Part shown: one piece after another, positions 25,133-47,350 of the stretch | Numbering within the stretch: position 1 is the first letter of the stretch | Layout of the letters: the number at the start of each line of letters is the position of its first letter | From: Sphingobium sp. V4 | GTDB lineage: Bacteria > Pseudomonadota > Alphaproteobacteria > Sphingomonadales > Sphingomonadaceae | Direction: 5' to 3' | Length of the DNA stretch: 64,000 nt | Assembly (NCBI RefSeq): GCF_029590555.1 | Contig: NZ_CP081001.1 | Location: 1,364,001 to 1,428,000, forward strand | Notes under the pieces: model-generated | Seen by the model: the letters and a program-made list of their open reading frames with translations, nothing else | The model's database searches: none | What the model was told of the DNA's origin: nothing | Translations under genes and position numbers: made by a program

Positions 25133-26467
25133 CTACCCCTGCCCCCGCTTGGTAAAACGGGCGAACGCGGCGTCGGAAAGGCGCACGTCGATGCGCGTTT
25201 CCTCATCTTCCATGATGGTCGAGAGCACTTCGCCATGTTCGTGCAACCAGGCAAGCGCCGCGCCGTCGGATACCGGGATGCGCAGGCCATAAACTTTTGC
25301 GCCGCGCGTCATGCGGTCGCTGATCGTGCGCTGTAGCGCGTCGACGCCTTCACCCGTCAGCGCCGACAGGATCACGACATCATCCCGTCGCGCGGCCTGT
25401 TCACGGATCAGCGCCCCATCCTCCTCGCCCAGCAGGTCGAGCTTGTTCCAGGCTTCGATGATCGGTGGCGCATCCGGCTCGCCTTCCGCCCGCTCCAGCG
25501 CCGCCTCCCCGGCAACGCCCAGTTCGCCGAGCACATCCAGCACGTCATCGCGCTGTGCATCGGTATCGGGATGGGCGATGTCGCGAACATGGACGATGAG
25601 GTCGGCCGACAGGACTTCCTCCAGCGTCGCGCGGAAGGCCGCGATCAACTGGGTCGGAAGGTCGGAAACGAACCCCACCGTATCGGACAGGATCGCCTTG
25701 TCGAGGCCGGGGAGCGATATCTGGCGCATGGTGGGATCAAGCGTGGCGAATAGCAGGTCTTCCGCCATGACGTCCGCGCCCGTCAGCCGATTGAAGAGCG
25801 TCGACTTCCCAGCATTGGTGTAGCCGACCAGCGCGATCACCGGCCAGGGCGCGCGCTGGCGCCGGGCGCGGTGGAGTCCGCGGGTCCGCGTAACCTGGTC
25901 CAGTTCACGGCGAATCTTGGCCATGCGGTCTCGGATCATGCGGCGATCCGCCTCGATCTGGGTTTCGCCGGGGCCGCCGAGGAAGCCGAAGCCACCGCGC
26001 TGTCGCTCCAGATGGGTCCAGCTGCGCACCAGGCGCCCGGCCTGATAATCGAGATGGGCCAGCTCGACCTGGAGCCGCCCCTCATTGGTGGCGGCGCGCT
26101 CGCCGAAGATTTCGAGGATCAGGCCGGTTCGGTCGATGACCTTCGCCTCGCACGCCTTTTCAAGATTGCTCTGCTGTACCGGCGACAGGCTGTTGTCGAC
26201 GATGACCAGCTCGGCATCTTCCTGCCTGACCAGCGTCGCGATCTGATCGACCTGTCCGCTGCCGAACAAGGTGGCCGGCTTGCGGTCGCGGACGCGAAAA
26301 GCCTGGGCCGCGCGCACGTCGATGCCGATGGCAAGCGCGAGTCCGCGCGCCTCCTCCAGCCGCGCATCGCTGTCGCGGCGATCTGCACCATGGGTTTCGG
26401 CATGGACGACGACGGCGCGCGCGCCGCGCGCCACCTCGTCATCGGAGTCGCGGTTGAATATGGCCAT
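25133..26467 (-). CDS. hflX: GTPase HflX
   Basis: The protein has 444 residues and is a ribosome-associated GTPase that splits stalled or heat-damaged 70S ribosomes. The N-terminal HflX domain contains the glycine-rich GPGETQIE motif and the basic helix before it. The G domain shows G1 (GYTNAGKSTLFNRL), G3 (DTVGFVSDLP) and G4 (NKLD). It follows hfq by 65 bases on the same strand, the classic hfq-hflX arrangement. Confidence 0.96.
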   Translation of the reverse strand: MAIFNRDSDDEVARGARAVVVHAETHGADRRDSDARLEEARGLALAIGIDVRAAQAFRVRDRKPATLFGSGQVDQIATLVRQEDAELVIVDNSLSPVQQSNLEKACEAKVIDRTGLILEIFGERAATNEGRLQVELAHLDYQAGRLVRSWTHLERQRGGFGFLGGPGETQIEADRRMIRDRMAKIRRELDQVTRTRGLHRARRQRAPWPVIALVGYTNAGKSTLFNRLTGADVMAEDLLFATLDPTMRQISLPGLDKAILSDTVGFVSDLPTQLIAAFRATLEEVLSADLIVHVRDIAHPDTDAQRDDVLDVLGELGVAGEAALERAEGEPDAPPIIEAWNKLDLLGEEDGALIREQAARRDDVVILSALTGEGVDALQRTISDRMTRGAKVYGLRIPVSDGAALAWLHEHGEVLSTIMEDEETRIDVRLSDAAFARFTKRGQG

Positions 26468-26532: not shown

Positions 26533-27015
26533 TCAATCGTCCTGTTCGTTCTCGCCGGTCAGGTCGAGCGCGTGGAGCGGTTGGACCGTCGAAATGGCGT
26601 GCTTGTAGACGAGCTGCACCATGCCGTCGCGTTCGAGCAACATGCAGAAAAGGTCGAAGGCGGCGATCTCGCCCTGAAGCATGACGCCGTTCACCAGGAA
26701 CATCGTCACCGGGCTGCCCGATTTGCGGACCGCGGACAGGAAGATTTCCTGCAACAGCTTGGGCTTGCCATTGCTTTCGCTCGATTTACGCAGGTCGGTC
26801 AGGTCCATCGACTGGGCCGGCATCACGGTCGAGATTGCGTGCTTATACACCAGCTGCGACTGGCCGTCGCGGCGCAGCAGCACGGAGAAATTGTCGAACC
26901 AGGTGATGATGCCCTGCAACTTCACGCCCTTGACCAGAAACATGGTCACCGGGGTCTTGCTCTTGCGCAGGCTGTTCAGGAAAATATCCTGAAGATTGTT
27001 CACTTTATCGGCCAT
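26533..27015 (-). CDS. hfq: RNA chaperone Hfq with two tandem Hfq domains
   Basis: The protein has 160 residues, about twice the usual length, and contains two complete Hfq (Sm-like) domains repeated with a period of exactly 80 residues. Domain 1 (about 7-67) keeps Q9, D10, K32, Q34, D41, F43 and Y57-K58-H59, plus rim residues N14, R17, K18, K20. Domain 2 (about 87-147) keeps Q89, Q114, D121, F123 and Y137-K138-H139 but has E90, M112 in place of the proximal-face lysine, and rim changes S94 and G100. Hfq pairs small RNAs with mRNAs as a hexameric ring; here three chains could build a pseudo-hexamer. hflX follows downstream. Confidence 0.96.
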
Positions 27016-27192: not shown

Positions 27193-28563
27193 CTATTCCT
27201 TGCCTTCGGTGATTCCCAGCAGCTTCAATTTTCGGTGCAGCGCCGATCGCTCCATGCCGATGAAAGTGGCCGTGCGCGAGATATTGCCGGAAAAGCGGCG
27301 GATCTGGATGCGCAGATATTCGCGCTCGAAACTCTCGCGTGCCTCGCGCAGCGGGGCGCCCATGATGGCGGACTGGCCGATCCCCTCCCCGCCGCCGCCG
27401 CTGGTCAGTTCAGGCGGCAGCATGTCCAGCTCGATCCGGCCGATCCGGTCGCCCGGCGCCAGGATCATCGTGCGTTCGATGACATTACGCAGTTGCCGGA
27501 CATTGCCGGGCCATTCATTGGCCTGGAGCGCGGCCATCGCGTCGCTGGCGATTTCCGGCGGCGGTACGCGTCGGTCAGCGGCGAAGCGGGCGAGATAATG
27601 TTCGACCAGCGGCGGAATGTCGTCGCGGCGCTCGGACAAGGGCGGGATGGCGAGCGGGACGACGTTGAGGCGATAGAAGAGATCCTCGCGGAAACGCCGT
27701 TCCTCGATTTCCGTCGCCAGGTTGAGCGCGGTCGAGGAAATCACCCGCACATCAACTTTGACCTGCCGCTGGCCGCCGACGCGGGTGAAGCTCTGGTCAG
27801 TCAGCACGCGCAGGATCTTGCCCTGCGTCGTCAGCGGCATGTCGGCGATTTCGTCGAGATAGAGGGTGCCGCCATGCGACTGCTCCAGGAAGCCGGGGCG
27901 CACCAGGCCGCTGGGGTCTTCCAGGCCGAACAGTTCCTCCTCCACCCGATCGGGGTCCATCCGCGCGGCGGCGACAATGATGAAGGGCGAATCCGCGCGG
28001 CCGCTCCAGCTGTGGAGCATCCGCGCGGCGACTTCCTTGCCAACGCCGGCGGGGCCGGAGATCAACACGCGACTGCCGGTTCCGGCGACCTTCTTGATCG
28101 TGGCGCGAACGCTGTTGATCGCCGCGGACGTGCCGGTCAGCTCGTCATCCTGGCCGAAACGCGCCCGCAGCACCTGGTTCTCCCGCCGCAGCCGCTCCGT
28201 CTCCGTTGCGCGGGCGACAAGATGGAGCAGCCGGTCGGCCTCGAACGGCTTTTCGATGAAATCGGCCGCGCCCTTGCGGATGGCGGCGACGGCTGTATCG
28301 ATATTGCCGTGCCCCGAAATCATCAGCACCGGTATGCTAGGGTCGCGACGCTTGATCTCGTCCAGCAATTCCAGCCCGTCCATCCGCGATCCCTGGAGCC
28401 AGACGTCGAGCAGCACGAGCGAAGGGCGGCGCGAATCCAGCGCATCGATCGCGCTGTCGCTGTTGGCGGCGGTGCGGGTGGTGAAGCCTTCGTCTTCCAG
28501 GACGCCCGCGACCAGATCGCGAATATCCTCTTCATCGTCCACAATCAGAATATCAAGCGCCAT
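27193..28563 (-). CDS. ntrX: Response regulator NtrX (AAA+ sigma54-type, GAFTGA loop missing)
   Basis: The protein has 456 residues. A receiver domain (Asp53 phosphorylation site, acidic pocket D9-D10, conserved Lys in IEKPF) is followed by an AAA+ domain with Walker A GPAGVGKE and Walker B LYLDEIADM, and a Fis-type helix-turn-helix at the C-terminus (GNISRTATFIGMERSALHRKL). In the loop after EELFG, where sigma54 activators have GAFTGA, the sequence reads LEDPSGLVRPG, so the sigma54-contacting loop is absent. It overlaps ntrY by 11 bases. NtrYX controls nitrogen and redox or envelope genes in alphaproteobacteria. Confidence 0.93.
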   Translation of the reverse strand: MALDILIVDDEEDIRDLVAGVLEDEGFTTRTAANSDSAIDALDSRRPSLVLLDVWLQGSRMDGLELLDEIKRRDPSIPVLMISGHGNIDTAVAAIRKGAADFIEKPFEADRLLHLVARATETERLRRENQVLRARFGQDDELTGTSAAINSVRATIKKVAGTGSRVLISGPAGVGKEVAARMLHSWSGRADSPFIIVAAARMDPDRVEEELFGLEDPSGLVRPGFLEQSHGGTLYLDEIADMPLTTQGKILRVLTDQSFTRVGGQRQVKVDVRVISSTALNLATEIEERRFREDLFYRLNVVPLAIPPLSERRDDIPPLVEHYLARFAADRRVPPPEIASDAMAALQANEWPGNVRQLRNVIERTMILAPGDRIGRIELDMLPPELTSGGGGEGIGQSAIMGAPLREARESFEREYLRIQIRRFSGNISRTATFIGMERSALHRKLKLLGITEGKE

Positions 28564-41649: not shown

Positions 41650-41953
41650 GCTTGCGATATCCCTCTCCGGAGATGGCGGGCTTATGACGCTCGACGCCTT
41701 GCGGACTGAAACCGGCGAAATGCCGCATGAGAAGTTCGCTACGGCCCAATGCGTCCCATAGCCCGAAAAAGCACTGGATATTTTCGCGTCAGGATCTGGC
41801 CCGTGGAATGTCCAGCATATGGCGCCATTCGCCTTACATGTTTCCCGGGGTCCATAGCTGGGCTTCCAGCCCCCCAACGCGAAAGCCGTTTGCGAAAATG
41901 GCGCCCGGCGCTATGGGCAGGCGCGTGGGGAGCAGATGCGCCCCACATGATCG
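41650..41953. other. Intergenic region between divergent TonB receptors
   Basis: This stretch separates the minus-strand receptor from the btuB riboswitch and must carry both promoters. I see a 10-base palindrome ATGGCGCCAT at 41819-41828 and a small GCTGG/CCAGC hairpin at 41857-41870. No open frame here has a ribosome-binding site or recognisable protein, and I cannot place -35/-10 boxes with confidence. Confidence 0.4.
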
Positions 41954-42149
41954 CGCCGGTGCCCCTCGGGGCTTGAATGGGAACATGGTGAGGCGGCTTC
42001 GTTCAGAGGTCGGCAAATCCAGGGCTGTCCCTGCAACTGTAAGCGGTGAGCGCGATGCACGGGTTCCGGAACGATCCGGGACGGCCACTGGGGAAACCTG
42101 GGAAGGTGTGCATCGCGCGACGACCCGTGAGCCAGGAGACCTGCCGGCG
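41954..42149 (+). promoter_or_regulatory. Cobalamin riboswitch upstream of btuB
   Basis: The conserved core of the adenosylcobalamin aptamer is readable: GGGAAC and GTGAGGC, then CCCTGCAACTGTAAGCGG, then the CACTGGGG-AAACCTGGGAAGG arm, and the B12 box GCCAGGAGACCTGCC at 42131-42145. Closing stem P1 is CGCCGG at 41954-41959 with CCGGCG at 42144-42149. It lies about 200 bases before the btuB ATG on the same strand. When B12 is plentiful it should lower btuB expression. Confidence 0.93.
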
Positions 42150-42346
42150 TGGGTCGCTCATTGTCCCAGGTCCAGGGAAAGGCCGGGGCACGGAGAATGT
42201 CCGTCGAGCGACGACCAAGCGGCGCGGGCCGCTTCGGCGCAGGGTATGCGGGCGCATGACGCCGGCTCGCCGGTCCTGCGCCGGTCGATCGCACGCTGCG
42301 CATCGGCAGGCCCCGCCTTCGTTGCCGGTGTTCGGAGGGGGCCTCC

Positions 42347-46211: not shown

Positions 46212-47002
46212 TGCTCGAACTGGACCGGGTCTGCGTCGCACTGGGCCGCCGCCAGGTGCTGAGCGGCGTTTCGGCAACCTTCGGCGCCGGGGCGCTGGTA
46301 GGGATCGTCGGTCCCAACGGCGCCGGCAAATCCACCCTCGCGCGGGCCATGCTGGCGCTGGTACCCGCGCAGGGGCGCGTCCTGATCGACAGCTCAGATG
46401 TGGCCGCCATGCGCCGCGATGACCTCGCCCGGCGGATCGCCTATCTTCCCCAGGGCCAGACGCTGCACTGGCCTCTGACGGTCGAGCGCCTGGTCGGCCT
46501 CGGTCGCCTGCCCCATCTCGGACCCATGTCGCGGATCGGCCCGCACGATGCCGCCGCCATCGAGCGGGCCATGACGCGGGCCGATGTGCTGGACCTGCGG
46601 CAGCGAGTCGCGACCGAATTGTCCGGCGGCGAACGCGCACGTGTACTGCTGGCAAGGGCGCTGGCGGTCGAAGCGCCCACCCTGATCGCCGACGAACCGC
46701 TCGCCAGCCTGGACCCCGGCCACCAGATCGACGTCATGGACCTGCTCCGCGCACAAGCGCATGACGGCGCGCTCGTCATCGCCGTCCTTCATGACCTGAC
46801 CATGGCGGCTCGCTATTGCGACCGGCTCCTGCTGATCGATCAGGGAAGGCTGGTCGCCGACGGCACGCCTGCGGATGTCCTTACCAACGGCCATCTTCGC
46901 GATGTCTATGGGATCGAGGCGGAGGTGCATCTGGGCGGAGCCTGGCCAACGGTCACGCCGCTGGCGCGCAGCCCGTTGACCGCGCCATCGAAATCGATGT
47001 AA
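46205..47002 (+). CDS. btuD: Cobalamin ABC transporter ATP-binding protein BtuD
   Basis: The protein has 265 residues (263 from an ATG at 46211). Walker A is VGPNGAGKST, the signature is LSGGERARVLLARAL, Walker B is LIADEPLASLD and the switch histidine is in AVLHDLTMA. It is the FepC/BtuD-type ATPase paired with BtuC, whose stop it overlaps. The second cobalamin riboswitch begins directly after its stop. Confidence 0.91.
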   Translation: MVMLELDRVCVALGRRQVLSGVSATFGAGALVGIVGPNGAGKSTLARAMLALVPAQGRVLIDSSDVAAMRRDDLARRIAYLPQGQTLHWPLTVERLVGLGRLPHLGPMSRIGPHDAAAIERAMTRADVLDLRQRVATELSGGERARVLLARALAVEAPTLIADEPLASLDPGHQIDVMDLLRAQAHDGALVIAVLHDLTMAARYCDRLLLIDQGRLVADGTPADVLTNGHLRDVYGIEAEVHLGGAWPTVTPLARSPLTAPSKSM

Positions 47003-47011
47003 CGCGGCGTC

Positions 47012-47173
47012 GCGACAGGTTCCCCGGAGACGGGGACGAAGATGGGAACGGGACAAACCCGGCTGCCCCTGCAACTGTACGCGGCGAGCCATCGGCCATA
47101 TGCCATTGGGACGAATGTCCCGAGAAGGCGGCCGACCGGCGCTGACCCGCAAGCCAGGAGACCTGCCTGTCGC
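47012..47173 (+). promoter_or_regulatory. Cobalamin riboswitch upstream of the DUF1636-cobT operon
   Basis: The aptamer core is clear: GATGGGAAC, GGCTGCCCCTGCAACTGTACGC (split here only for length), the GCCATTGGGACG...CCCGAGAAGGCGG arm, and the B12 box GCCAGGAGACCTGCC at 47153-47167. P1 is GCGACAGG at 47012-47019 with CCTGTCGC at 47166-47173. A copy of the 5' P1 strand, CGACAGG, recurs at 47229-47235 and could compete for the 3' strand. It should repress the salvage operon when B12 is present. Confidence 0.94.
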
Positions 47174-47350
47174 CGTCGTCTTTCGCGCGGACAGGGTGAG
47201 CCGGGCGGACGGGGGTCAACCCGAGCGACGACAGGGAAGCCGCGCGAAGCGCGGTCGATGTCGTGCGCGCCAGGGCAATCGCATCGGCCGGTTCGGGCGG
47301 CATTGTCGATGGGGGGTAGCCGTGCCGATATTTGTTGAGCGAGATGTCCA
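47174..47350 (+). promoter_or_regulatory. Expression platform and leader after the second riboswitch
   Basis: The 177-base leader holds the alternative P1 partner CGACAGG (47229-47235), followed directly by a GC hairpin CCGCGC-GAA-GCGCGG (47240-47254). No U-tract follows that hairpin, so control may be at translation or through Rho. No small gene with a ribosome-binding site is visible. Confidence 0.5.

Follow-up and report, generated by a model that had tools for sequence, protein, structure and literature searches.

A tandem double-domain Hfq in Sphingobium with reciprocal changes at two distal-face positions of its domains

Hfq proteins with two domains in one chain are already known from sphingomonads. 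According to the accessible text of Yang et al. (2010, PMC2877685), the Hfq of Zymomonas mobilis (ZMO0347) has two Sm-like domains, an hfq insertion mutant tolerates several inhibitors less well, the same arrangement occurs in six other Sphingomonadales species, and a ring of three chains is a possibility; that text does not compare the two domains residue by residue. Z. mobilis Hfq has also been studied in ethanol tolerance (PMC9797736, in whose text the words trimer and hexamer are absent). Besides, Novosphingobium aromaticivorans appears among organisms with two hfq-like gene copies in the available part of PMC3474761, and the sRNA SuhB is described as acting Hfq-dependently in Sphingopyxis granuli in the available part of a review (PMC6563040). 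The NCBIfam model NF010691 (PRK14091) names the tandem protein only and is silent on symmetry, and among the 35 PDB sequences that matched Hfq there was no double-domain protein, each match being one stretch of at most 114 residues. A Novosphingobium case was reportedly noted by Sun et al. in 2002. In ordinary bacteria, all six Hfq sites come from one single-domain gene, so whether they need to be equal is hard to test; the sphingomonads, which range from Sphingobium to Novosphingobium and Erythrobacter and include Zymomonas, an ethanol producer, as well as degraders of pollutants, offer a natural experiment with two site types in one chain.

We analyzed 64,000 nucleotides of Sphingobium sp. 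V4 (contig NZ_CP081001.1, positions 1,364,001 to 1,428,000), referred to below as the window. The window hfq (26533..27015, minus strand) starts with ATG and encodes 160 residues. The initial annotation had read two Hfq domains in this chain, and profile searches bore this out: PF17209 matched two stretches (E value, 2.7e-57; 190.7 bits against a curated cut-off of 27), as did TIGR02383 (182.7 bits; cut-off, 61.7), and the 176-position model NF010691 covered residues 1 to 160 with 316.2 bits against a cut-off of 270. The protein is a full-length member of the NF010691 family with no difference found, and resembles ZMO0347 in its two Sm-like domains. Both domains keep the Y-K-H motif (residues 57 to 59 and 137 to 139), as had been noted. 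In this genome, Hfq matches occur nowhere but at the hfq locus, which has two of them. The minus-strand gene order is ntrC, ntrY, ntrX, hfq, and hflX; the response regulator gene ntrX (27193..28563) lies 177 bp upstream of hfq and the GTPase gene hflX (25133..26467) 65 bp downstream, both recognized by Pfam and NCBIfam models. Scans for promoters and terminators near hfq gave no hits. Among the matches listed, the nearest proteins with a genus name were from Sphingobium. The window gene is an ordinary chromosomal Hfq gene and a genuine member of the known fused family, and the suspicion in the annotation that the fusion had been seen before was right in substance. Elsewhere in the window, two cobalamin riboswitches were detected on the plus strand (41941-42162, 95.7 bits; 47000-47184, 117.6 bits), near genes that resemble, with scores below the curated cut-offs, those for a B12 receptor of the TonB-dependent type, for a BtuC-like permease, and for CobD.

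A duplication artefact of assembly or sequencing, for which single-domain hfq genes in close relatives had been named as the sign, finds no support at this locus, although five triple-domain metagenome proteins on short contigs do resemble such artefacts. Only 45 of 73 aligned columns are identical between the two halves of the window protein, each of the 10 further genomes sampled from the genus has two matches, and 79 of the best 80 named loci listed are doubles, the remaining one being a single. The diverged halves and the doubles across the genus refute this explanation for the window gene, and we give it practically no chance.

The core of domain 1 (residues 8 to 66; 26818..26994, minus strand) is a canonical Hfq with a net charge of +5, and it matches along its length single-domain alphaproteobacterial Hfqs such as those of Caulobacter (PDB 6gwk) and Sphingosinicella microcystinivorans (P0278). 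The core of domain 2 (residues 88 to 146; 26578..26754, minus strand) is a diverged Hfq with a net charge of -1. A fast-evolving linker of near-neutral charge lies between them (residues 67 to 87; 26755..26817, minus strand), and an acidic C-terminal tail follows domain 2 (residues 147 to 160; 26536..26577, minus strand).

We aligned the domains of 65 double Hfqs and 45 single-domain Hfqs to E. coli numbering. The doubles comprised 45 from outside a genus coded g13 and 20 of the 22 g13 genomes, the duplicates L002 and L112-L116 being left out. The repeat period of exactly 80 residues, as first described, holds for the window protein but not generally, since the motif spacing ranged from 72 to 83 and was 80 in 14 of the 63 doubles in which it was measured (the other two have no motif pattern). 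The residues on which the claim of asymmetry had been built (D10, N14, R17, K18, K20, K32, E90, S94, G100, and M112) are correct in translation, and the conserved asymmetry of a true tandem fusion was confirmed by the domain alignment and the double-Hfq relatives. K32 had, however, been taken for the proximal-face lysine, whereas it aligns with K31 of E. coli Hfq, a distal-face residue (PMC12262471, accessible text), and the partner change in domain 1, K29, had been missed. In the window Hfq, the distal-face site of domain 1 reads K29-G-V-K32 (26920..26931, minus strand), with lysines at E. coli positions 28 and 31, and that of domain 2 reads N109-G-V-M112 (26680..26691, minus strand), with no lysine.

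This pattern is nearly invariant. Position 28 is N in 45/45 singles, K in 65/65 first domains, and N in 64/65 second domains. Position 31 is K in all 45 singles and K or R in domain 1 (56 and 9 of 65, respectively), and it is M in 58 of the 65 second domains (45/45 outside g13 and 13/20 within it). Eight further singles of the family also have N28 and K31. Thus, N28K in domain 1 and K31M in domain 2 are reciprocal, nearly fixed changes on the distal face. Counting K and R at positions 28 and 31 gave two in domain 1 and none in domain 2 in 63 of the 65 doubles (two and one in the other two), and this sum of two is what two ordinary Hfqs carry together. The unchanged lysine total would be expected from compensation within one shared ring; the bookkeeping could also be a coincidence. 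The combination of K28 in domain 1 with M31 in domain 2, present in the window Hfq, is a signature that we propose here and that lies outside the definition of NF010691. It was found (as K28-K31 and N28-M31) in 79/79 doubles among the best 80 named loci listed, a biased sample, as the search patterns favor K28 and the nearest matches. The pattern can be relaxed, as seen from the drift of domain 2 at position 31 in g13 (7/20 without M) and from the replacement of Q33 in about 10 of 65 second domains. No description of the reciprocal change was found in the largely open-access literature searched. The fusion itself is already known; the interesting part is this specific, nearly invariant redistribution of distal lysines.

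For E. coli Hfq, the accessible text of PMC12262471 places K31 and Y25 on the distal face, R16 on the rim, and D9 on the proximal face, and reports that K31A lowered S-chimeras in RIL-seq almost fourfold, with an effect on regulation called mild. Since K31A is mild there, the functional effect of the asymmetry may be small. In the available portion of PMC6422490, the A site consists of L32, Q33, and Q52, the R site of Y25 with residues 26, 30, and 32 of the neighbor, and residue 31 touches a phosphate with its backbone amide; simulations in PMC8121710, as far as that text is accessible, have residue 28 contacting the N nucleotide through its backbone. Because the contacts at 28 and 31 run through the backbone, both domains should retain their base pockets, the change being one of side-chain charge. 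Q33 is kept in 64/65 first and 55/65 second domains, and Q52 in all. We infer that the protuberances involve the K31 side chains.

The domains also differ at the rim and in charge. N13 is present in 65/65 first domains versus 6/65 second domains, and R16 in 65/65 versus 40/65. Position 17 of domain 2 is acidic in 25/65 and basic in 25/65 (R in 19, D in 16, E in 9, K in 6, and Q in 4). Rim loss in domain 2 of the window Hfq, as originally claimed, stands for S94 and G100, but R97 and K98 are still there. Thus, the basic rim of domain 2 is much reduced in many relatives and less so in the window Hfq, and in the doubles of one genus (g35) the reduction goes further than in the latter. Outside g13 (n = 45), domain 2 has Q63 in 45 (M in singles), L41 in 41, and A38 in 40. 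Mean core net charges outside g13 were about +4 for singles, +4.7 for domain 1, and -1.5 for domain 2; within g13 they were +4.4 for domain 1 and -0.65 for domain 2, and domain 1 exceeded domain 2 in 64 of the 65 doubles. Linkers of 13 to 23 residues had net charges of -4 to +2 (median, 0). The tails of singles carry -1 to -6, and those after domain 2 are mostly acidic too, nine doubles having tails of only 0 to 4 residues. In g13, nine fast-evolving double Hfqs (L037, L042-L045, L047, and L052-L054) are 140 to 143 residues long with short linkers and hardly any tail, and the same set, 9 of the 20 g13 proteins, has a gap at positions 14 and 15 of domain 2.

On the proximal face, the description of domain 2 as a weak site was incomplete. 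Its pocket is mostly kept, with Q8 in 64, F42 in 57 (Y in 8), Y55 in 58 (F in 7), and K56 and H57 in all 65 second domains; H57 is replaced by Q in 4 of 65 first domains, all from g13. Both domains of the window Hfq have the Q8 and F42 equivalents in the alignment. As domain 2 keeps most of the proximal pocket, any alternation of sites concerns the distal face and the rim.

Purifying selection on both Hfq domains is strong. By the NG86 method with 11 sequences (the window, L005, L006, and L173-L180; 44 to 55 of the 55 pairs could be used, depending on the region), mean dN/dS was 0.029 for domain 1, 0.055 for domain 2, 0.42 for the linker, and 0.24 for the tail, values that are rough because dS was near 1. 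AlphaFold2, run on the single chain with a 64-sequence alignment, predicted each domain with the N-terminal helix and five strands of the Hfq fold (pLDDT, 89.5; pTM, 0.85). For two equal domains, this pTM suggests a defined packing of the two, ring-neighbor geometry lying beyond what pTM reports; the structure comparison of the model covered residues 4 to 75, that is, domain 1. It is very unlikely that domain 2 is a non-ring appendage or decaying copy and that domain 1 alone works as Hfq. Such a role would fit the lower conservation and weakened basic rim of domain 2, but not the strong purifying selection on it, the near-complete retention of its Q8, K56, and H57 positions, or the fact that 339 of the 388 Hfq-bearing family genomes have two matches, tandem order having been read in the fetched ones.

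We favor, with a probability of about 0.7, an ordinary Hfq that arose by one duplication and in which three chains would close into one six-domain ring, with domains 1 and 2 in alternation. The redistribution of distal lysines supports such a ring short of proof. With the proximal U-pocket residues (Q8, F42, Y55, K56, and H57 equivalents) mostly kept in both domains, binding of sRNA 3' ends should remain, and the ARN pockets of the distal face would likewise keep most of their base-contacting residues in both domains. The distal lysines, however, would be gathered so that three doubly charged positions alternate with three uncharged ones, the total of six being unchanged. In many relatives, annealing at the basic rim would fall mainly to domain 1, and each ring would carry three acidic tails instead of six, unlike single-domain Hfq, which has one domain per chain and N28, K31, and an acidic tail on every subunit. 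The distal face would thus be threefold rather than sixfold symmetric, an exact prediction that the reciprocal change at 28 and 31 allows for a global regulator. Eukaryotic Sm/Lsm hetero-rings (PMC2877685, available text) likewise have nonidentical Sm-fold positions, but with seven positions made by separate chains, whereas the double Hfq has two kinds of domain per chain and six expected positions. It is unlikely that assembly is instead homotypic, with a domain 1 ring and a domain 2 ring joined by linkers into a double ring or mesh. Both domains keep the Hfq core residues and linkers of 13 to 23 residues might permit this, but the first ring would then hold 12 lysines at positions 28 and 31 and the second none, leaving the constant pair total of two without a reason, and the single-chain pTM suggests that the domains pack on each other.

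Tentatively, and at rather less than even odds, the duplication may have created an obligate pseudo-threefold Hfq, a bacterial one-chain hetero-ring in which selection redistributed the distal lysines into three K28/K31 pairs between three uncharged positions, rims alternate between basic and neutral or acidic, and the ARN repeats of mRNAs are held in a fixed register, tight and loose triplets taking turns; if so, its history would resemble the way in which hetero-oligomeric Sm rings arose from homo-oligomers. It is also possible, although we would not wager on it, that the same mixed ring of three chains has an asymmetry with no specific function, in which redundant sites let domain 2 drift until the state was locked in (constructive neutral evolution). 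Domain 2 has diverged more from singles than domain 1 has (best identity averaging 62% versus 77% over the 45 doubles outside g13), its rim varies by genus at position 17, and it has decayed further in g13. Drift alone, however, does not predict N28K, a gain in the conserved domain 1 of 65/65 doubles, nor the near-uniform domain 2 changes outside g13 (K31M and M-to-Q at 63 in 45, N41L in 41, and W38A in 40 of 45), and the dN/dS of domain 2, about 0.055, is low for it.

As to its origin, single-domain Hfq genes of the family occupy the same ntrX-hfq-hflX place as the double ones. hflX lies downstream of hfq in the same orientation in 46/46 loci read with flanks, singles and doubles alike, and ntrX lies upstream in 39/46, including 15/15 family singles and 22/23 doubles. 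In a quick LG+G4 tree of NtrX and HflX (45 rows; the fragmentary L129 and the partial NtrX of L116 dropped; seven of eight outgroup rows and the double L148 represented by HflX only), 23/23 doubles formed one clade (SH-aLRT, 99), below which 14 family singles branched in five lines, L125 being nearest. In the domain tree, the 65 first domains formed one clade and the 65 second domains another (98 and 99), on only 70 columns and with warnings on the long g13 branches. The shared locus, the neighbor-gene tree, and the domain tree together point to a single in-place event, without clear loss, that doubled the domain in tandem within hfq in the common ancestor of a large clade of sphingomonads. 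A second duplication in single-domain lineages was rejected, as the matches of 107 to 144 aa that were read proved to be truncated doubles or singles with extended starts. Triple-domain Hfq was also rejected as a real class: the five metagenome proteins (P0001-P0005; 241 to 248 aa, on contigs of 791 to 1621 bp) mix domain types, by their residues at 28 and 31, as KK-NM-NM or KK-KK-NM and are probably assembly chimeras between two repeats, rare recombinants being the lesser possibility.

We surveyed the distribution of the fusion in 397 genomes drawn evenly from the window's family (code f1, which is wider than the NCBI families, where Sphingosinicella belongs to Sphingosinicellaceae and Zymomonas to Zymomonadaceae). 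Hfq was found in 388 of them, 47 with one domain match, 339 with two, one with three, and one with four, and nine had none. Tandem order in one frame was read directly in the 65 doubles and in 79 named ones. Of the 47 single-match genomes, 46 come from 14 genera that yielded no double, and the last one (G825) is fragmented and belongs to a genus with doubles. Among the 339, G583 has two equal-score single-domain matches near both ends of one contig, perhaps an overlap, and the sequence of one of the two copies was read. Neither of the two genomes with extra matches holds a third copy in tandem. In G777, the surplus is another double, partly N-masked and on a different contig; in G792, it is a domain 1 at a contig edge. 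In the order sample, 172 of 296 genomes passed the double-Hfq cut-off. With the domain model, the 44 family genomes among 66 selected ones split into 11 singles and 33 doubles; the remaining 22, from seven other families, showed no tandem Hfq (in G001, a fragment lies on a separate contig). In the class sample, Hfq was present in 237 of 289 genomes, and two matches were limited to the four genomes of the family and to G354, from another alphaproteobacterial family. The two matches of G354 are separate genes (L157 and L169); the second gene is Hfq-like, divergent and single-domain, sits on a different contig, and reads FKR at the YKH motif. In the phylum sample, 17 of 398 genomes scored above the NF010691 cut-off, all from the family, one of whose doubles (G071) fell just under it (261 bits). 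Outside the family no score in this sample exceeded 146 bits, and an independent double Hfq was rejected on this basis.

The named doubles among the matches listed included Sphingobium, Sphingomonas, Novosphingobium, Sphingopyxis, Sphingorhabdus, Erythrobacter, Qipengyuania, Tsuneonella, Croceibacterium, and Aurantiacibacter, among others. The Hfq of S. microcystinivorans is a single-domain protein of 82 aa with the same sequence as L014 from the single-domain genus g44. Many doubles of the Novosphingobium/Erythrobacter group (L198-L250, including Qipengyuania and Tsuneonella) carry an N-terminal extension of about 20 to 50 residues, which the window Hfq does not have. This extension starts with a conserved TL(S/T)xR motif, mostly as RTLSARP or RTLTARP, and a regular expression for the motif matched 32 of the best 80 named loci listed.
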